Shown piece by piece: positions 1 to 7,827 of a DNA stretch of 64,000 nucleotides. The stretch is from Pseudomonadota bacterium. Lineage in GTDB: Bacteria > Pseudomonadota > Alphaproteobacteria > GCA-2731375. Below the pieces are notes generated by a model that saw nothing but the letters and a program-made list of their open reading frames with translations, was not told where the DNA came from and did no database searches. How positions within the stretch are numbered: position 1 is the first letter of the stretch; every line of letters begins with the position of its first letter. Position numbers and translations under genes: made by a program. The DNA is taken from the NCBI GenBank assembly GCA_027623205.1, contig JAQBYC010000001.1:64121-128120 (forward strand), read 5' to 3'.

Positions 1-787
1 GGCCTAAATGCGGCGCGAAAAGCTGTTCCAGCAGCAGGCGGACCATATCCGGCCGCCGCATGGCTGTCAGGACCGGCTGGCTGGCTTCCTCCCCGCGCCG
101 CAGATGGATCAATGCCCGCACCGGCAGCGCCTCGCCAAAGCCGGCCGCCTGCGCGGGGCCAGGGCGCAATACCGCCATTTCCGGCCAGGTCATCACACTG
201 TGTTCCGCGACGAAGTCTCGATAGCGCGCATCCGCGTTCCGAGGCAGAGGCAGGCGCAGCTTGGGTGCCACGGCCAGTGACATTCCGACAGGTGCGGCGG
301 TGGAGGCGGCGGGGCCCAAATCCAGGATCAGCCGGTCATCGGCGAAGAAACGCAGACCGCGGCTGGCCAGAAGCGTCGCAAACGTACTTTTGCCAGCACC
401 GTTGTCGCCGAGTAAAAGGACCAGGCCATCGCCGATCCGCACGGCGCCGGCGTGGATCGACACCAAGCCATCGCCCTGGGCCACATAGGCGGCGATCAGG
501 GCGCCCACCAGGGTATTGGCGACCATATACCCATCGTCGAGGTCATAGTCCGAAAGCGCCATATGGGCTGATGAAATACGCCAATGCCCGCCTTTATTCT
601 GGACGATGATATCGCCGGGGGCGACCGACCCCTCCGACCCTTGGGCGCCGGCCACCCGGGGCTTCGAAACAGGCCATTGAGGGATCAGTTCAAACAAAAA
701 CGGCGCCACAGCCTGGGCGCCTTCCACGGAAATACCATGGTGCGGGCCAGCCAGGACAATCTGCTCTTTTGCTGCGCGGAAGGCCAT
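1..787 (-). CDS. HprK-like (HPr kinase-related) ATP-binding protein, 3' part cut by window edge
   Basis: The visible 262 N-terminal residues resemble the HPr kinase/phosphorylase fold but are not canonical HprK, which lies at 7288-7737. A P-loop GDNGAGKST is at about residues 127-135, after the strand IHAGAVRIGDGLVLLL. FADDRLIL at about 148-155 matches the VADDQVIL strand of true HprK. HprK paralogues of this kind occur beside small peptide genes and PqqD-like chaperones, and some modify peptides; the substrate here is unknown. The ATG is the first Met after an in-frame TGA that ends the upstream small ORF, leaving 27 bases between them, so the two are probably cotranscribed. The stop codon lies outside the window. 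Confidence 0.75.
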   Translation of the reverse strand, partial: MAFRAAKEQIVLAGPHHGISVEGAQAVAPFLFELIPQWPVSKPRVAGAQGSEGSVAPGDIIVQNKGGHWRISSAHMALSDYDLDDGYMVANTLVGALIAAYVAQGDGLVSIHAGAVRIGDGLVLLLGDNGAGKSTFATLLASRGLRFFADDRLILDLGPAASTAAPVGMSLAVAPKLRLPLPRNADARYRDFVAEHSVMTWPEMAVLRPGPAQAAGFGEALPVRALIHLRRGEEASQPVLTAMRRPDMVRLLLEQLFAPHLG

Positions 788-814
788 CCCCAATGATCGT
801 CGGCCGGCGTTATT

Positions 815-1090
815 TCAGCCTTGGCCGCTACTTACTTTTTTCCTTGGATTTGGATCTGGATTTGGATTTGGATCTGGATTTGGATTTGCTTTTACTGTTG
901 TCATCACAACTACCGCCGGGACAAACGCGGGATGGGCGCGCCTTTTTTTTGCCAGGGCCTGGCCATCGATGTGGGTGATGGTCGGCGCGGCATAGACAAC
1001 GGCAACCGCCAAGCCCAGCCGGCCCAGTGCCCTGCGGCGGCTCAAACCAAGCCTACCCTCATCTTCCGCCAATTTCCCTTGCCTGGGCAT
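815..1090 (-). CDS. Small membrane-anchored or exported protein with Asn-Pro/Asp-Pro repeat tail
   Basis: A 91-residue protein. After a charged N-terminus comes SRRRALGRLGLAVAVVYAAP (about residues 17-36), an arginine-rich motif followed by a hydrophobic segment, resembling a Tat-type or signal-anchor sequence. A basic stretch AKKRRAH follows, then a tail of alternating Asn-Pro and Asp-Pro (about 70-82) and RKKVSSGQG. The tail is encoded by a hexanucleotide repeat. It sits directly upstream of the HprK-like kinase gene, so it could be that kinase's partner or substrate; this is inference. The start is the ATG at 1090; in-frame TTG/GTG codons to 1099 are alternatives. I do not recognise a characterised family. 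Confidence 0.55.
   Translation of the reverse strand: MPRQGKLAEDEGRLGLSRRRALGRLGLAVAVVYAAPTITHIDGQALAKKRRAHPAFVPAVVVMTTVKANPNPDPNPNPDPNPRKKVSSGQG
844..885. repeat. Seven-unit hexanucleotide repeat (TTGGAT/CTGGAT)
   Basis: Seven consecutive 6-base units read TTGGAT or CTGGAT on the plus strand, with the C variant every third unit, giving an 18-base higher-order period. On the minus strand they encode the NP/DP tail of the small protein. Because units are 6 bases, slippage would lengthen or shorten the tail without shifting the frame. Confidence 0.9.
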
Positions 1091-1345
1091 CACCAACAAT
1101 TCCCAATTACATCTATTACAATCTGCTTATAATTTTAATCTGCATCATTTGCGACTGAATCGCTAGAGCATTTTTCAATTAATTGGAGTCGCTGGCGCGA
1201 CTTAAGTAATCGGTTCAATTGCTCTTCCTAAAAGTGTCCGCGCACATTTGGATCAAATGTGCTCTTGCATTTATTACTGTATCGCTCGGCAGACGCGGCA
1301 CCGTCCAAATGTTGTATCTGAAATGAACATTATCAAGGGCGATCC
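1091..1345. other. Intergenic region holding dispersed-repeat copy 1
   Basis: This 255-base AT-richer gap lies between the stop of the CMP-sugar synthetase gene and the start of the small repeat protein, both on the minus strand. Most of it is the dispersed two-hairpin element described separately. The remainder should contain the promoter of the small protein/kinase pair, but I could not identify boxes with confidence. Confidence 0.5.
1171..1265. repeat. Dispersed two-hairpin intergenic element, copy 1
   Basis: Hairpin 1 has arms AGTCGC (1187-1192) and GCGACT (1197-1202) around a 4-base loop, flanked by TTCAATTAATT and TAAGTAAT.GGTTCAAT. Hairpin 2 has 9-base arms GCACATTTG (1242-1250) and CAAATGTGC (1254-1262) around GAT. 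The same architecture recurs near 8266 and 48329. The loop sequence varies while the stem is conserved, suggesting selection for, or descent of, a folded element. Confidence 0.75.
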
Positions 1346-2074
1346 TTAAGAATTCTGTAATTTGGCAAGGCCGGAGGCCAACAGGGCCTGCCCCAGCTTG
1401 ATGTCATCCGGGCCGTGCAGATGAAAGCCCTGGGCAAAAGGAATTTCGATCGGACGCGATGGACTGGCAAAGGGCGTCCGCTGGTCCATCGCCGCCAGGC
1501 TGCGAAAAACCAAAAGATTGCCGAATAGATAATGTTTGGCCTTCCGCTGTCTGTCGCCGGCGGCACCCCGCTCTTCCGGGAAACGGAAGTTGACCTGGCC
1601 ATCCCGAATGATCAGTTGGTCAAAAGCATGGTGGTTATGAGGGCAAAGAACAACGGTCTGGGCCGAGCCGGCGTTAGGCTCCGCCAACAGGGCATCCACA
1701 GTCCACTGGATATGCTCGGCCAGCAAAAATGGCGAGGTCGGCTGCAACAAGGCGACGCATTCCGCCACCGCGCCTTCGCGGGTGTAGAGGTTCTGCAAGA
1801 AATCTTCAATGACCGCCATGTCGGGGGTGTTGTCGGCACCCAGGTGTGCCGGCTGTGGATGCACTTCAACGCCAAGGGCGGCACAACGGTCAGCAATGCC
1901 CTGATGCTCGGTACTGCAAAACAACCGATTCAGGCTGCCGGCGCCTTTCGCTGCGAGAATTTGAAAATCCAGCAACGGCCGGCCAATAAAGGGCGTCAAA
2001 TGCTTCACTGGGATGGATTGAGGGCCACCCCGCGCCGGGATCAGGCCCCAAACGGCGCCGGGGATAATCTTCAT
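1346..2074 (-). CDS. Acylneuraminate cytidylyltransferase-family protein (CMP-sugar synthetase-like)
   Basis: A 242-residue protein of the NeuA/PseF/KdsB-like nucleotidyltransferase group, which activates sialic-acid-type sugars with CTP for surface glycan assembly. The N-terminal strand and P-loop-like motif LIPARGGPQSIPVKHL (residues 11-26) and ALLQPTSPFL mark the family. In canonical members the motif is IPARGGSKGIP; here Ser-Lys is replaced by Pro-Gln, so the usual basic nucleotide-binding residue is missing. The start at 2074 is preferred over an in-frame ATG at 2110 because AAGGA sits 9 bases upstream and family members begin close to the motif. No other glycan genes are in view. Activity is uncertain. 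Confidence 0.8.
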   Translation of the reverse strand: MKIIPGAVWGLIPARGGPQSIPVKHLTPFIGRPLLDFQILAAKGAGSLNRLFCSTEHQGIADRCAALGVEVHPQPAHLGADNTPDMAVIEDFLQNLYTREGAVAECVALLQPTSPFLLAEHIQWTVDALLAEPNAGSAQTVVLCPHNHHAFDQLIIRDGQVNFRFPEERGAAGDRQRKAKHYLFGNLLVFRSLAAMDQRTPFASPSRPIEIPFAQGFHLHGPDDIKLGQALLASGLAKLQNS

Positions 2075-2469
2075 GCCGGCCAATCCTTGAAATACACCAG
2101 GCACGGGCACGGCACATCTGCGCCAGCAGGCCGACGGCCAGCGGTGAAATAGCCCAGTAAGGTCACAGAATACATGCCCCGTCGTACATCAATGCCTGCA
2201 AAAAAAGAATCTTTCCAAAACTCGCCCTAATGCTCTCGTTGCCCAAGCCGCTCACTGCCGGCATCGCGCCAAAGCGAAGCACCGCGCCGGAGACGTTTCA
2301 TGATAACAGAACGGATGCTGCATTGCGCCGCCAAACCCATGGGAAATGAGGCCTATCGCGCCTGGTTCGATCGTCCAACATTCCTTTCGCACCGACAAAA
2401 GATGGTTAAGATGGGCGCCGATGCACAAAACCGGTCTCGCGACAGAGGCGTACAATAGAAGGCGATCGA
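2075..2469. other. 395-base intergenic region between divergent genes
   Basis: It separates the CMP-sugar synthetase gene (minus) from the amidase (plus) and must carry both promoters. I see no tRNA, repeat or clear terminator. It contains one small plus-strand ORF (2300-2458), listed separately. Confidence 0.5.
2300..2458 (+). CDS. Possible 52-residue small protein, unknown
   Basis: ATG-to-TAG ORF starting MITERMLHCAAKPMGNEAYR and ending 11 bases before the amidase start. Composition looks protein-like, with mixed charge and aromatic residues and no long low-complexity run. There is no convincing ribosome site and I recognise no family. It could be a leader peptide for the amidase or a chance ORF. 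Confidence 0.2.
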   Translation: MITERMLHCAAKPMGNEAYRAWFDRPTFLSHRQKMVKMGADAQNRSRDRGVQ

Positions 2470-3639
2470 ATGGCTGACCATCTGGGGGCTTATATTAGGC
2501 ACGATATGATTGCGCTGGCGGCGACAGCGCCGGGGCCGCTATCCGGCTTGAGCTTTGCGGCCAAGGATCTTTTTGACATTGCGGGCCATATCACCGGCGC
2601 CGGCAGCCCGGACTGGCTGGCCAGCCATGGCCCGGCAGCCACCACGGCCTCGTCCATAGCGAGGTTGCTAGCGGCGGGGGGCCATATGGTGGCCAAGGCG
2701 CAAACCGACGAAATGGCTTTTTCCATCACGGGTCAGAACGCTCACTACGGCACCCCGGTCAACGTCAATGCGCCGGGGCGGATTCCCGGCGGCTCGTCCT
2801 CGGGCTCGGCCGCGGCGGTAGCCGGGGGCCTGGTCGATTTCGCCCTGGGCTCCGATACCGGCGGATCGGTGCGCATGCCGGCCGGTTTCTGCGGCATTCA
2901 CGGCATCCGCACGACTCAGGACCGGATCCCGGTGGATGGCGTGCATCCCCTGGCCCCCTGCTTCGACACGGTGGGCTGGTTCGCGCGCGGCGGCGAACTG
3001 ATGCGTCGGGTGGGGCGGATCCTGCTGCCGGACTATTCGGACCATCCAGCGGCAACCCGTTTGCTTGTGGCCCAGGATTGTTTTGATCTGCTGCCAAAAG
3101 ATGCGGCTGCGGTCTTGGCCCCTGCCGTTGACCGGATCGCCGATAATTTTTCAGGACGGGAAGACGTGCGGGTGAGCGAGGACGGGCCCGAAAACTGGAT
3201 GCCCCATTTCCGCATCCTGCAGATGGCGGACATCTGGCGTGTCCACGGCGACTGGATCAAACAGACAAGACCAAGTTTCGGCCCCGGCGTGGCGCAACGG
3301 TTCGCGACTTGCGCCACCATTACCCCCGAGGCGGTAGTTGCAAGCCGTCGGGTGCAGGACGCCGTTCGACGGCGCTTGGCGGACCTGTTGGCCGGCAACG
3401 GCGTGCTGTGCCTTCCCACCACTCCCGGTATCGCGCCGTTGTGCCTGACGCCGGAGACCGAATTGGACGATTTCCGCTGGCGCAGCATGGGCCTGACCTG
3501 TATTGCCGGCTTGTCGGGATGCCCGCAGATCAACCTACCCCTGGCCAGCCTGGATGATTGTCCCCTGGGCCTGGGCCTGATGGCGGCTCCGGGTGGCGAC
3601 GAAGTCCTTTTGCAATTGGCTGCGGCGATTGCACCATAA
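2470..3639 (+). CDS. Amidase-signature family amidase
   Basis: A 389-residue amidase hydrolysing a small carboxamide to acid and ammonia; length and layout resemble the compact AMI1-like (indole-3-acetamide) amidases rather than GatA. The Ser-cisSer-Lys triad is visible: Lys in FAAKDLFDIAG (about residue 32), the Gly/Ser-rich GGSSSGSAAAVAGG (about 107-120), and the nucleophile region LGSDTGGSVRMPAG (about 126-139). AAGG lies 8 bases before the ATG. It is followed 66 bases later by regB on the same strand. The substrate cannot be read from sequence. Confidence 0.88.
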   Translation: MADHLGAYIRHDMIALAATAPGPLSGLSFAAKDLFDIAGHITGAGSPDWLASHGPAATTASSIARLLAAGGHMVAKAQTDEMAFSITGQNAHYGTPVNVNAPGRIPGGSSSGSAAAVAGGLVDFALGSDTGGSVRMPAGFCGIHGIRTTQDRIPVDGVHPLAPCFDTVGWFARGGELMRRVGRILLPDYSDHPAATRLLVAQDCFDLLPKDAAAVLAPAVDRIADNFSGREDVRVSEDGPENWMPHFRILQMADIWRVHGDWIKQTRPSFGPGVAQRFATCATITPEAVVASRRVQDAVRRRLADLLAGNGVLCLPTTPGIAPLCLTPETELDDFRWRSMGLTCIAGLSGCPQINLPLASLDDCPLGLGLMAAPGGDEVLLQLAAAIAP

Positions 3640-3705: not shown

Positions 3706-5064
3706 ATGATGACCACAAGCCGCATTGCCTCCATCGGTTCGGCCCGCCCGGCCATGGGTCAGGTGCGGGTGCGGACCTTGTTGTTGATCAGATGGCTGGC
3801 GATCTTCGGCCAAATGGCGGCGCTGCTGGTGGTCGACAAATTCTTCGACTTTGCCCTGCCCTTGATCCCGGCCATAGCAACCATTGGCACTTCCGTCGCC
3901 GTCAACCTCTGGATCATCGCCCGTTACAATCGGAACCAATGGCATCATAACCGCGCCGCTGCCGGCTATCTGGCATTCGATATCTTACAATTGGCCACTT
4001 TGCTGTATCTGACCGGCGGTCTGGACAATCCTTTCGCGCTGTTATTCCTGGTGCCGGTCACCATATCGGCCACGATTCTAAGTCTGCGCAGCGCCGTCTA
4101 TCTGGGTCTGCTGGCGGTATTTTGTGTCAGTTTGCTGGCGCTTTTCCACCGGCCTTTGCCCTGGCCCGAGCCCGGCTTCCAATTGCCGCAAATTTACGCC
4201 GCCGCGGTGTGGATATCGCTGGTTTTAGGTACGGTCTTCCTCATGTTTTATGCCTGGCGGGTGGCGGAAGAAGCCCGGCGGATGTCGGACGCCCTGGCAG
4301 CGACCCAAACCGCGCTGTCGAAAGAACGGGAATTATCGGCATTGGGCGGCCTGGCGGCGGCAGCGGCCCATGCACTGGGCACGCCGCTGGGCACCATTGC
4401 GTTGATTGCGAAAGAACTGCTGCACGAGCAAACCGCGAACGCGGAGACGCAAACAGACCTGGAGCTATTGGATGGGGAGGTTGACCGTTGCCGGACGATT
4501 TTGGCCAGCCTGGCCCAAAATCCATCCGCTGGCGCCGACCCAGCCGTATCGCAAATGAACTTTGGCGTGCTGGTGGCCGACGCGGCGGCGCGCCATGAGA
4601 GAGATGACATAGCGATTATGGTTGTAGCCGGCACAACAACCAATCCGCCCCTGGTCGAGCGCAGCCCGGAACTGGTGCAAGGCCTGGGCAATTTGGTGGA
4701 AAATGCCATGGAGTTCGCCAGCAGCCAGGTAAATCTGGAATATGCCTGGAATGATGAGCAGGTGGAACTGTCGATCAGCGACGACGGCCCCGGTTTCGCC
4801 CCGAATATTCTCGATCTTTTGGGTGACCCCTATATCAGCACCCGGCCTGGCAGCGGGCGCATGGGACTAGGCGTTTTCATTTCGAAAACCTTGCTGGAGC
4901 GGACCGGAGCGGCGCTGCATTTCTTCAACCGGCGGCAAGGTTCGGGCGCGACAGTTATCATCCGCTGGCCAAGACACATAATAGACCTTAAAAGCGATGA
5001 CCAGACCAGTACCAGTTCTGCAAATCCGGGGCATTACAATCGGCTCGGTCAGGGGGAGCGTTGA
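3706..5064 (+). CDS. regB: RegB/PrrB/ActS-type redox sensor histidine kinase
   Basis: A 452-residue membrane kinase that senses redox state through quinone and a reactive Cys and phosphorylates RegA. The N-terminal half has about six membrane helices including the RegB signature LTGGLDNPFALLFLVPVTIS (about 102-121). The H-box LAAAAAHALGTPLGTIALIA contains the phospho-acceptor His222, and Cys262 in DRCRTIL corresponds to the redox-active Cys of RegB. N and G boxes follow (NLVENAMEFA, DDGPGFAP, MGLGVFISK). The residue after the His is Ala, where RegB proteins normally have Glu. The stop overlaps the TTG just upstream of the regA start, so translation is probably coupled. Confidence 0.9.
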   Translation: MMTTSRIASIGSARPAMGQVRVRTLLLIRWLAIFGQMAALLVVDKFFDFALPLIPAIATIGTSVAVNLWIIARYNRNQWHHNRAAAGYLAFDILQLATLLYLTGGLDNPFALLFLVPVTISATILSLRSAVYLGLLAVFCVSLLALFHRPLPWPEPGFQLPQIYAAAVWISLVLGTVFLMFYAWRVAEEARRMSDALAATQTALSKERELSALGGLAAAAAHALGTPLGTIALIAKELLHEQTANAETQTDLELLDGEVDRCRTILASLAQNPSAGADPAVSQMNFGVLVADAAARHERDDIAIMVVAGTTTNPPLVERSPELVQGLGNLVENAMEFASSQVNLEYAWNDEQVELSISDDGPGFAPNILDLLGDPYISTRPGSGRMGLGVFISKTLLERTGAALHFFNRRQGSGATVIIRWPRHIIDLKSDDQTSTSSANPGHYNRLGQGER

Positions 5065-5066
5065 CA

Positions 5067-5624
5067 ATGACGGGGGACGAAATCGGCGAGACCGAGATAA
5101 CGCGATCGCTGCTTTTGGTCGATGACGATGACGTATGGTTGCAGCGGCTGGCCACGGCCATGGGCCGGCGCGGCTTTACGGTGATCACTGCCCGCTCGGT
5201 CAAGGACGGTGTCGGTAAGGCCAGGGAATTTGCGCCCGCGTACGCGGTAATCGATCTGCGGCTGGAAGATGGCAACGGTCTGGACGTCGTCAGCGCCCTG
5301 CGCGAGGTGCGCCCCGATGGCCGCATCATCATGCTAACCGGTTATGGAAATATTGCCACGGCGGTGGCCGCGGTAAAAATGGGAGCGGTGGATTATCTTT
5401 CCAAACCAGCGGACGCGGACGCCATTGAAGCCGCGCTTTTGGCTGGCGATACCGAAACGCCGCCGCTGCCTGAACGGCCCATGTCTGCTGACCGCGTTCG
5501 TTGGGAACATATCCAGCGGGTCTACGAGTTGTGTAACCGTAACGTATCGGAGACGGCCCGCCGCCTGAGCATGCACCGCCGCACCCTGCAACGCATCCTG
5601 GCCAAACACTCGCCCAGGGAATAA
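5067..5624 (+). CDS. regA: RegA/PrrA/ActR-type response regulator
   Basis: A 185-residue two-domain regulator of redox-controlled genes (respiration, nitrogen and carbon assimilation in relatives). The receiver has the acidic pocket LLVDDDDVW, phospho-acceptor Asp in AVIDLRLEDG, and the switch and Lys in MLTGYG and YLSKPAD. The C-terminal Fis-type helix-turn-helix, HIQRVYELCNRNVSETARRL then SMHRRTLQRIL, is nearly the invariant RegA form. The ATG at 5067 is chosen over the TTG at 5061 because AGGGGGAG lies 8 bases upstream of it. Here it adjoins an amidase gene, with no senC in view. Confidence 0.93.
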   Translation: MTGDEIGETEITRSLLLVDDDDVWLQRLATAMGRRGFTVITARSVKDGVGKAREFAPAYAVIDLRLEDGNGLDVVSALREVRPDGRIIMLTGYGNIATAVAAVKMGAVDYLSKPADADAIEAALLAGDTETPPLPERPMSADRVRWEHIQRVYELCNRNVSETARRLSMHRRTLQRILAKHSPRE

Positions 5625-6361: not shown

Positions 6362-7291
6362 TCATGTCTTACCGGCATCGCGATGGCGCACTTGCACTTC
6401 TTGGCCAACCGCCGCTAAACGCTTCGTTAACGCTTCGGCCGTGTAGACCGACCTGTGACGGCCACCTGTACAACCGATTGCCACTGTCAAATAGCTTTTT
6501 CCTTCGCGTTGATAAAGCGGCAATAGAGTCTTCAGCATATTAGTCAAGGATGCCAGGAATGGCTCGCAGGCAGGATCCGCGGCAATATATGCGCCAACGG
6601 CCGATTCCTGGCCCGTCAGCGGCCGCAATTCATCAACATAATGGGGATTCGCCAAAAATCGCACATCGAATACCAGGTCGGCTTCCCGGGGCAGTCCCTG
6701 ACGATAGGAAAAGGACAAAACCAAAACCGATAGACGGGGACCATCAGACAGGCGAAAATGGCCGGCGATGAGGGCCCGCAGTTCGCCCACCGTGAGATTG
6801 GAGGTGTCGACCAGCAAATCAGCCCGGTCTTTAATCGGCGCTAATAATTGCCGCTCCCGCACAATGCCGTCCATCACGGGGCGATCTTCCGCCAAGGGAT
6901 GGCGGCGCCTGGTTTCGGTGAAGCGACGAGCCAGAACCTGATTATCACAATTCAGAAAAACGACCTTCAAATCGATATCATCCCGCGCGGCCAGAGGCGC
7001 CGTGGCCCGATCAAAGGCCTTGGTACTGAAATCCCGTTGCCTAAAATCTACGGTGATGGCGATGGCGTGATCGCCACCGCCCGGTCTCGTCAACGGATAT
7101 AACAGACGGTTGATCAAAGACAGGGGCAGATTATCAATGGCCTCATAACCGACGTCTTCCAGCGCCTTGAGCGCCAATGTACGCCCCGCGCCGGATAGCC
7201 CGGTGATCAGCAGCAAGCGTACCCGTGGCTTTGTGGGCGGCGCCCGGTCTTTCCGGTGGGTTTTTTTTTGATTTGGGTTTTTTGCCATCAT
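6362..7291 (-). CDS. rapZ: RNase adapter protein RapZ (YvcJ family nucleotide-binding protein)
   Basis: A 309-residue P-loop protein; in E. coli RapZ targets sRNA GlmZ to RNase E, controlling glucosamine-6-phosphate synthesis. The N-terminal GLSGAGRTLALKALEDVGYE (31-50) and AIDNLP, a central SFSYRQGLPREADLVFDVRF, and a C-terminal IGCTGGRHRSV are all family hallmarks. The Walker A Lys is Arg (GAGRT), a variant I believe also occurs in related bacteria. The first ATG of ATGATG at 7291 overlaps the hprK stop as ATGA; longer in-frame starts inside hprK are less likely. Its place in the PTS cluster is conserved. Confidence 0.93.
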   Translation of the reverse strand: MMAKNPNQKKTHRKDRAPPTKPRVRLLLITGLSGAGRTLALKALEDVGYEAIDNLPLSLINRLLYPLTRPGGGDHAIAITVDFRQRDFSTKAFDRATAPLAARDDIDLKVVFLNCDNQVLARRFTETRRRHPLAEDRPVMDGIVRERQLLAPIKDRADLLVDTSNLTVGELRALIAGHFRLSDGPRLSVLVLSFSYRQGLPREADLVFDVRFLANPHYVDELRPLTGQESAVGAYIAADPACEPFLASLTNMLKTLLPLYQREGKSYLTVAIGCTGGRHRSVYTAEALTKRLAAVGQEVQVRHRDAGKT

Positions 7292-7737
7292 GAACGCAAA
7301 ATATCCTCGTTCAGGGACCGCAACAGAAGAACAACTTTGTCCGGCGCCGAAGCTTCGAACGGGACACATGGGTATAGCGGCAGACTGACGCCGTCAATCG
7401 TACAATGGTCTGCCTCGGGCATGCGCGGTACAGCGCCTTGCGCGCCTGGGGCGCACAAATCCAATATCAAACCCACGCGAGCTTCGGCCAGCGTCGTCAT
7501 TTCAAGCACGCCGACGCCCCGAACTTCCAGCAACCCGGCGATCCGCGCCGGCGCCTGGGCCCACAGTTCATTCGATCGCCGCGTCAATATAACCTGATCG
7601 TCGGCCACAAGCTGCACGCCCAAATGGGTCCGGCCAAGCAGGCGCAGGGCCAGGTCCGATTTGCCCGACCCTGGCGCCCCACGCAGTAATACGGCCGTGG
7701 CGCCGATCGCTATGCAAGTTCCGTGCACTAAACTCAT
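7288..7737 (-). CDS. hprK: HPr kinase/phosphorylase (short alphaproteobacterial form)
   Basis: A 149-residue protein with only the C-terminal catalytic domain of HprK, as usual in alphaproteobacteria. It phosphorylates and dephosphorylates the regulatory Ser of HPr. Motifs are VHGTCIAIG, the P-loop RGAPGSGKSDLALRL, VADDQVILTRR and the HprK signature GLLEVRGVGVLEM. The start MSLVHGTCIAIG at 7737 fits family length; an ATG at 7806 would add 23 residues. It is first in the operon; chvI-chvG, often directly upstream in Rhizobiales, is about 11 kb away here. Confidence 0.93.
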   Translation of the reverse strand: MSLVHGTCIAIGATAVLLRGAPGSGKSDLALRLLGRTHLGVQLVADDQVILTRRSNELWAQAPARIAGLLEVRGVGVLEMTTLAEARVGLILDLCAPGAQGAVPRMPEADHCTIDGVSLPLYPCVPFEASAPDKVVLLLRSLNEDILRS

Positions 7738-7827
7738 GATGCCGGCAAGACTGCGCCGATAGGGCCGTGAAGGCAACACCATTGCAGCCGCGCCGGTGAT
7801 CCTCACAACAAAGAAAAAGCGGGTTTG

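Follow-up and report, generated by a model that had tools for sequence, protein, structure and literature searches.

A candidate RRE-guided peptide phosphorylation cassette with Tat-type leader precursors in uncultured Alphaproteobacteria

Introduction

The left edge of the stretch of alphaproteobacterial DNA analysed here (the window; 64,000 nucleotides, positions 64121-128120 of its contig in a genome of 5.0 Mb and 228 contigs) carries an HprK-like kinase gene with a small gene directly upstream, raising the question of whether the kinase acts upon the small peptide encoded beside it. The initial annotation proposed such a kinase-substrate pair and placed it on the cell surface or in the membrane. 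Precedents for phosphorylated peptides are the phosphorylated lasso peptides (PMC10368454, PMC9266682, PMC8498205), the linear polyphosphorylated peptides (LPPs) described in 2026, whose lpp clusters are said to be restricted to Bacillota and to be embedded in capsular loci (PMC13381572), and, as a general precedent only, the di-phosphorylated ocean RiPP product phospeptin (PMC9259500).

The comparison of the locus with its relatives indicated that the kinase probably phosphorylates the small peptide, helped by a peptide-recognition protein. The best reading is a Tat-exported linear phosphopeptide pathway which, as far as the literature was searched, is unreported in this phylum: the titles and abstract openings among the matches listed named no such alphaproteobacterial system, and searches for literature on HprK-related kinases with PqqD and on PF14907 found none. 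Nor was an earlier description of the small peptide family found, as far as searched.

Results and Discussion

Gene order of the locus

The whole operon was read from locus L009, which extends the window by 14 kb to the left. The order on the minus strand is small ORF, kinase, PqqD-type gene and TPP enzyme. The small gene, as assembled, encodes 91 aa (815-1090). The kinase gene occupies positions 1-793 of the window (ORF 2-793), with its C-terminal part cut at the window edge, and encodes 306 aa at full length (L009 13873-14793), while the 89-aa PqqD-type gene (L009 13607-13876) overlaps it by 4 bases. Upstream of the cassette lies a PseF-related cytidylyltransferase gene of the CMP-nonulosonic-acid type (1346-2110, minus strand), scoring 49.6 bits for PF02348 (cut-off 22.6) and matching TIGR03584 below the cut-off of that model (E=8e-19). 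The arrangement originally described, a small signal-type ORF directly in front of the kinase gene, was thus confirmed, the ORF having a twin-Arg signal-like start, and two of the partner genes suspected to the left of the window exist: a PqqD-like gene as the next gene after the kinase, and a nucleotidyltransferase gene (PF14907) elsewhere in the genome, on another contig.

The kinase and its predicted recognition partner

In no model that it matched did the kinase reach the curated cut-off (35.8 of 200 bits for TIGR04352; 23.9 of 33.3 for Pfam Hpr_kinase_C), and its assignment was taken from the predicted fold and the catalytic residues. The AlphaFold2 model (pLDDT 87.4) matched structures of PEPCK (VIA Z 15.4) and HprK (VIA Z 14.2), with the PEPCK entries at the top of the ranking and the HprK entries just behind over a shorter stretch; lasso kinases were not among the entries of the match list, to which no weight was given. 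His114, Gly134-Lys135-Ser136 and Asp152-Asp153 were invariant in all 12 aligned kinases, the window copy included. Judged by order and spacing and not by direct alignment, these residues appear to correspond to the His-Lys-Asp-Asp motif that lasso kinases carry (PMC9266682). The HprK-fold motifs recognized at first reading were therefore borne out. The cassette kinase is also distinct from the genuine hprK, as had been proposed: it shares fold and catalytic residues with HprK, but a separate hprK-type gene is present at 7288-7806 (TIGR00679 E=5.5e-19, itself under the model cut-off), in a row with genes for RapZ, an EIIA-type protein and HPr.

The adjacent PqqD-type protein passed Pfam PF05402 (35.1 bits against a cut-off of 23.4) and belongs to the RiPP recognition elements (RRE) by profile and by predicted fold. 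The best PDB match of its profile was TbiB1 (E=2.5e-11), a lasso B1 protein whose structure includes the bound leader, followed by 9x8z, a 'PqqD family protein' (2.5e-5), TfuB1 (8.1e-5), another lasso chaperone, 9x90 (0.0093), and PqqD itself (0.017). The AlphaFold2 model (pLDDT 91.7) had the TbiB1-leader and TfuB1-leader complexes as its top fold matches (TM 0.77-0.83, rmsd 1.6-2.1 A) and PqqD ranked after them (TM 0.74). Among 42 kinase genes, 29 had a neighbouring PqqD match, four were fused to an RRE and nine had neither. In total, kinase and RRE were found joined in 11 proteins, six of them at five loci and the rest at the five hold-out loci described below; such fusion in one protein ties the two functions together.

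Leader family of the small protein

A single-sequence search of 96 genomes recovered a small gene beside the kinase in relatives from the same genus and family; the N-terminal halves were conserved, whereas the tails were unlike one another. The conserved part has the form RRxxL..L, followed by YxxPx[ILV] and usually AxA, after which comes a hypervariable tail of Gly, Ser, Pro, Lys and Arg. Positions R17, R18, L21, L24, Y32 and P35 (L062 numbering) were invariant in all 38 aligned members, an alignment from which the window copy was left out. In a larger set of 56 parsed members, YxxPx[ILV] was present in 55, the remaining one having been misparsed at an upstream RR, and in 53 of them it stood 15 residues from the first Arg; AxA followed YxxP in 53 of the 56, the stretch that begins with the Tyr and closes with the final Ala being 13-18 residues long, mostly 14 or 15. 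Since models of this very leader were used to find the members, some of this conservation is built in, and the informative part is the contrast with other Tat signals: among 30 such signals of relatives, namely the loci fetched out of 91 matches (30 residues from the twin Arg; G000-G004, G015), YxxP was absent from every one.

The same motif has a known function elsewhere. In lasso leaders the RRE binds at YxxPxL, positions -17 to -12 (PMC10368454), and YxxP is essential for the LppB-LppA complexes (PMC13381572).

The coding constraint of the small ORF, a point on which the initial annotation could have failed, was evident in the leader, where the differences by codon position over 15 pairs of six genus sequences were 66/84/231, falling mostly at third positions. 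Export through Tat is predicted from the invariant RR in the 38 members, from the frequent AxA and from the presence of TatC in each of the 15 genomes searched. The 38 members matched no Pfam or NCBIfam model specific to a family: the Tat-type models TIGR02811 and TIGR01409 matched six each (best 1.9e-5 and 5.6e-4, respectively), HxsA4 was matched by two, and Pfam gave three weak single-member matches. The window copy itself scored 14.8 for TIGR01409, under 16.7.

Frame change in the window copy

The small gene of the window follows the family only as far as its leader. On the minus strand, the part from 1090 to about 951 codes for the conserved Tat-type leader SRRRALGRLGLAVAVVYAAPTITHIDGQALA, after which the listed ORF reads RAHPAFVPAVVVMTTVKANPNPDPNPNPDPNP..., unlike every tail of the relatives that was compared. 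At or beside a run of eight A (A8; 943-950, minus strand) the frame shifts with respect to the aligned relatives: read in the other frame, from the A8 run to the TAG at 830-828, the DNA gives ARPSRVCPGGSC...SKSKSKSRSKSKSRSKSKEKSK-stop, and the tail-coding stretch (828-942, minus strand) yields the family-type tail ARPSRVCPGGSCDDNSKSKSKSRSKSKSRSKSKEKSK, comparable with the ARPSVICPGGSCGSKSKSKSRGK..., ARPSNVCPGGSC... and similar tails of relatives. Past A8, this alternative frame thus codes for ARPSxxCPGGSC with Lys-Ser/Arg-Ser repeats, as is usual in the family. The ARPSRVCPGGSC stretch agreed at 10, 10 and 11 of 12 positions with three tails, one from the relative L062 and two from the relative L064, and its nucleotide differences from those tails by codon position (2/1/6, 1/1/7 and 1/1/7) are mostly third-position, the pattern left by selection on that frame.

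The Asn-Pro/Asp-Pro repeat tail, which had been taken as a feature of the small protein, is therefore ruled out as genuine: the alternation results from an AAATCC/AGATCC hexamer array translated out of frame, in place of a serine-rich family tail. Likewise, the Ser-rich end noted at first is a property of the family that the ORF as listed does not share. A conserved programmed frameshift was unsupported, the A run not being kept among the relatives.

The precursor of the window is accordingly out of frame after its leader either as a sequencing artefact or as a decayed copy. The lengths of the neighbouring gene products are almost the same as in G010 (own/G010: TPP enzyme 544/543, PqqD 89/89, kinase 306/303, cytidylyltransferase 254/254, amidase 389/389), so that a single local error and a real mutation are both possible. 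A real mutation in this one copy, possibly an on/off or slippage event at A8, appears somewhat the less probable of the two: A8 is a slippage-prone run and the equal neighbour lengths argue against a generally poor assembly, but the run is not conserved in the relatives read and the reading rests on one assembly without reads.

Tails of the family

The tails, of which 55 distinct ones were counted with the frameshifted tail of the window left out, consist mainly of Gly (21.7%), Ser (17.7%), Pro (11.6%), Arg (10.3%) and Lys (9.6%). Ser or Thr was present within the first 15 residues of 54 tails. In 44 tails a Pro stood beside Ser/Thr in this region, a count that none of 2000 shuffles reached (mean 24.3, maximum 34). 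The common form has Pro-Ser a few residues past AxA (ARPS, FPS, KPSPC, VPSPC), and many such tails then continue into repeats, for example KSKSRS, GSKSR, GPSRPS or SKESKPS; other tails are short and Cys-bearing, or consist of Arg/Lys runs. One short tail was without Ser/Thr and some had a single Ser (e.g. L089 6264-6485). The Arg/Lys-run tails with few Ser (L089 6264-6485 and L088 5607-5858) are a poorer fit to a phosphorylation model.

In lasso biosynthesis, BsfK phosphorylates Ser3 of a precursor with a YxxPxL leader and its RRE, BsfB1, speeds up the reaction (PMC10368454), while in the LPP pathway LppK likewise phosphorylates Ser3 of its substrate LppA, which requires its YxxP to bind the RRE LppB (PMC13381572). 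Since both kinases target Ser3 of the core, the predicted first site in the family described here is the Ser of Pro-Ser soon after AxA. Phosphorylation of the tail repeats themselves is a guess.

Co-occurrence and neighbourhood of leader and kinase

Alignment searches of 385 genomes of the class gave 35 genomes with strong leader matches and 35 with strong kinase matches, 33 of which had both. The line for strong matches was drawn by eye where the match lists showed gaps (leader E<=1.6e-5, kinase E<=1e-40), which leaves out nine weaker-leader genomes (of 44) and 34 weaker-kinase genomes (of 69); at the looser limits, 36 of the same 385 genomes had both leader (44) and kinase (69). A strong kinase match without a leader was found in G199 and G117, and the opposite in G386 and G127. 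Related genomes are not independent, so p values for this co-occurrence overstate its strength.

The neighbourhood was less uniform. The leader gene was directly upstream of the kinase gene in 23 of 41 leader-bearing genomes, a count that omits loci L087-L092, among them L091, where a fused kinase follows the leader gene. In the other 18 genomes the leader gene was elsewhere, either roughly 25-119 kb off or on another contig; one of these genomes, G006, has both genes at contig ends. A further view was obtained by a hold-out search of 398 genomes of the phylum with the leader only, which returned seven matches. Besides the own genome and G042 these were five new genomes, four of them from one family of another class. 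None of the five new loci took part in model building, and in all five the leader gene immediately preceded, on its upstream side, a kinase ORF in which the RRE model was matched as well. Their tails were SRPSYSRPSYSRP-like or consisted of Gly/Ser/Arg repeats. The proposal that the two genes are neighbours in other genomes therefore held for 23 of the 41 genomes and for the five hold-out loci, with the genes lying apart in the 18 others.

One leader gene, L079 5227-5409, is in a genome (G001) for which neither a kinase nor a PF14907 match was obtained, and may be an orphan or relic.

Nucleotidyltransferase and surrounding genes

PF14907 was found in 31 of the 35 strong-kinase genomes of the class, four being without a match, compared to 44 of the 350 others. 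Its genes adjoin the cassette in several families; in the genus they were located elsewhere in the kinase-bearing genomes. Within the genus, PF14907 was present in G000, G002, G003, G005, G006, G007, G009 and G010, and neither PF14907 nor the kinase was found in G001, G004 and G008. In pseudomycoidin formation, the nucleotidyltransferase PsmN adds hexoses to phosphoserine (PMC9266682).

The remaining neighbours point to a surface-polysaccharide context. The PseF-like cytidylyltransferase upstream of the cassette is a conserved neighbour in the genus, some members of which also have UDP-GlcNAc 2-epimerase, 2-hydroxyacid dehydrogenase and NeuB-type genes near it. Leader genes of other families stand close to a PfkB-plus-cytidylyltransferase-like (HldE-like) gene. 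Kinase, PF14907 and leader genes of G311 and G099 are scattered over about 40 kb that also hold glycosyltransferase, nucleotide-sugar, Poly_export and Wzz-type genes. In G311 the stretch between the kinase and leader genes also contains two asparagine-synthase-type genes (PF00733 with a GATase domain; L185 1465-3255 and 6330-8252). ABC transporter and HlyD genes occur near the kinases of some other families; inspected by eye, the surroundings of the window cassette showed no MsbA-like exporter.

A calcineurin-like phosphoesterase gene lies beside the PF14907 gene in both G311 and G099 (L184 4716-5474 and L188 10593-11417, respectively); these enzymes are possible phosphorylation antagonists.

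Relation to known systems

The cassette is closest in its parts to the lpp clusters and to the phosphorylated lasso clusters, and it would work like the front end of either pathway. In common with the LPP system (PMC13381572), it has a conserved N-terminal YxxP leader with a highly variable C-terminus, a discrete RRE beside an HprK-like kinase, each with its own gene in the window genome, and an association with polysaccharide loci; the PF14907 gene, on another contig in the own genome, is a candidate counterpart of the LPP NTP transferase. In contrast, the leader here reads RRxALxRLGL...YxAPxIxxLD..AxA and lacks, beyond YxxPx[ILV], the LPP consensus YxxPxVLxHQxIxFETxxS; the phylum is different, kinase-RRE fusions occur, and the tails have Pro-Ser(-Pro-Cys) and long Ser repeats. 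The SipW-type SpI peptidase (TIGR02228) was found in none of 10 genus genomes and in none of 15 genomes over the cut-off, with one weak match in G017, using a control that matched 8 of 14 genomes. Membership of the LPPs as their authors define them was thus rejected on the lack of an SpI peptidase match in these genomes, on the other leader consensus and on the described restriction of LPPs to Bacillota.

The phosphorylated lasso peptides (paeninodin with PadeK/ThcoK, SyanK, pseudomycoidin with PsmK/PsmN, and BsfK/BsfB1/BsfN) share the HprK-type kinase with His-Lys-Asp-Asp, the B1-type RRE, the YxxPxL leader motif and, with PF14907 as a candidate counterpart, the nucleotidyltransferase (PMC10368454, PMC9266682, PMC8498205), but differ from the present system in its Tat leader, its long repetitive tails and the lack of a lasso B2 family match: PF13471 was absent from 15 genomes, the own genome included, with a control that matched 2 of 14. 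The cassette was accordingly not assigned to the lasso clusters.

The third comparison concerns HPr-rel-A (TIGR04352/TIGR04353) and SynChlorMet ScmC/ScmD, both of which we take to be pairs of a kinase and a PqqD-type partner. The likeness consists in an HprK-related kinase beside a PqqD-type protein. Membership of HPr-rel-A was rejected, the window proteins being far below both cut-offs (the kinase as given above, the PqqD-type protein 16.1 of 35 bits). A true HPr-rel-A set (TIGR04352 377 bits, TIGR04353 59 bits) was noticed in L034 (G021) at 354-3454, beside PF14907 and Poly_export genes. It is a parallel kinase-RRE-nucleotidyltransferase system, and G021 gave no leader match in the leader search of the class genomes.

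Proposed pathway and alternatives

Taken together, the locus is likely to be a RiPP-type cassette for phosphorylation of a small peptide, in which an RRE-guided kinase would act on a precursor with a Tat-type leader before Tat export, with a possible sugar or nucleotide step by PF14907. The N-terminus of the precursor would double as a twin-arginine export signal (RR...AxA) and as a docking site (YxxPx[ILV]), at which the PqqD-type RRE would bind the YxxP motif and hand the precursor over to the HprK-like kinase. The kinase would then add one or more phosphates to Ser/Thr of the tail, the likeliest first site being the Ser next to Pro, and the PF14907 nucleotidyltransferase may subsequently put a sugar or nucleotide on the phosphate. 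The product would leave by Tat with its leader removed by an ordinary signal peptidase, and the charged tail would then reside in the periplasm or outside the cell, with a probable link to surface polysaccharide. The Tat-type leader may in this way replace a dedicated peptidase and exporter. Of the kinase-substrate pair proposed at the outset, the pairing is well supported by adjacency, co-occurrence and coding constraint, and phosphorylation is its presumed content; modification at the cell surface or in the membrane found no support, since a kinase that uses ATP and is paired with an RRE would be expected to work in the cytoplasm, ahead of export.

The strongest alternative to such a cassette takes the small protein for an ordinary surface peptide that is exported by Tat, and assigns the kinase and PqqD-type protein another target within the shared surface-polysaccharide context, such as a nucleotide sugar or a polysaccharide enzyme. 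It would accommodate the CMP-sugar, heptose-type and polysaccharide export genes near the cassettes, the full Tat-like leader motif, mostly with AxA, and the separation of leader and kinase genes in a substantial part of the genomes. It is nevertheless unlikely, because it would leave aside an invariant YxxP within the signal that other Tat signals do not have, an RRE of the leader-binding lasso type, the near one-to-one co-occurrence of kinase and leader, and the Ser-rich tails. A degenerate or cryptic lasso system, with the kinase, RRE and nucleotidyltransferase as lasso tailoring enzymes and a peptide that is or was a lasso, is highly improbable: the part types (A, B1, K, N) are those of phosphorylated lasso clusters (PMC9266682, PMC10368454), the RRE is closest to lasso B1 and the two PF00733 genes of G311 belong to the family that is the source of lasso cyclases, but the PF13471 searches were negative, the tails are low-complexity repeats and no cyclase-like ORF was seen by eye beside the window cassette.

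More tentatively, the peptide phosphorylation cassette might constitute a new RiPP class in the phylum, combining RRE-guided phosphorylation (perhaps phosphoglycosylation) in the cytosol with Tat export, a signal that is at the same time the RRE dock, and multiply phosphorylated Ser-repeat tails tied to surface polysaccharide. If this were true, the Ser-repeat tails would be bacterial counterparts of SR-repeat phosphoproteins. The linear phosphopeptide pathway proposed above would, for its part, account for small Tat-signal proteins without a family-specific Pfam or NCBIfam model match. Tat is able to carry cargo modified beforehand in the cytosol, which would give the export a simple rationale. 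RRE-guided kinases would then serve a much wider family than the LPPs, described as Bacillota-only (PMC13381572). The reach of the system extends over uncultured Alphaproteobacteria and one family of another class in the phylum, and the loci supply concrete precursors, kinases and RRE fusions for expression.

Other features of the window

An Rfam scan of window positions 1-2600 gave no match at the gathering cut-off. A short dispersed repeat (TAGAGCATTTTTCAATTAATTGGAGTCGC-like) is present at 1155-1200, and the own genome has 40 more matches to it (E<=0.001). Genes of a RegB/PrrB-RegA/PrrA two-component system are located near the window cassette (3706-5624), and in another family (loci L150-L152 and L163) the kinase gene comes directly after relatives of RegB/PrrB-RegA/PrrA.
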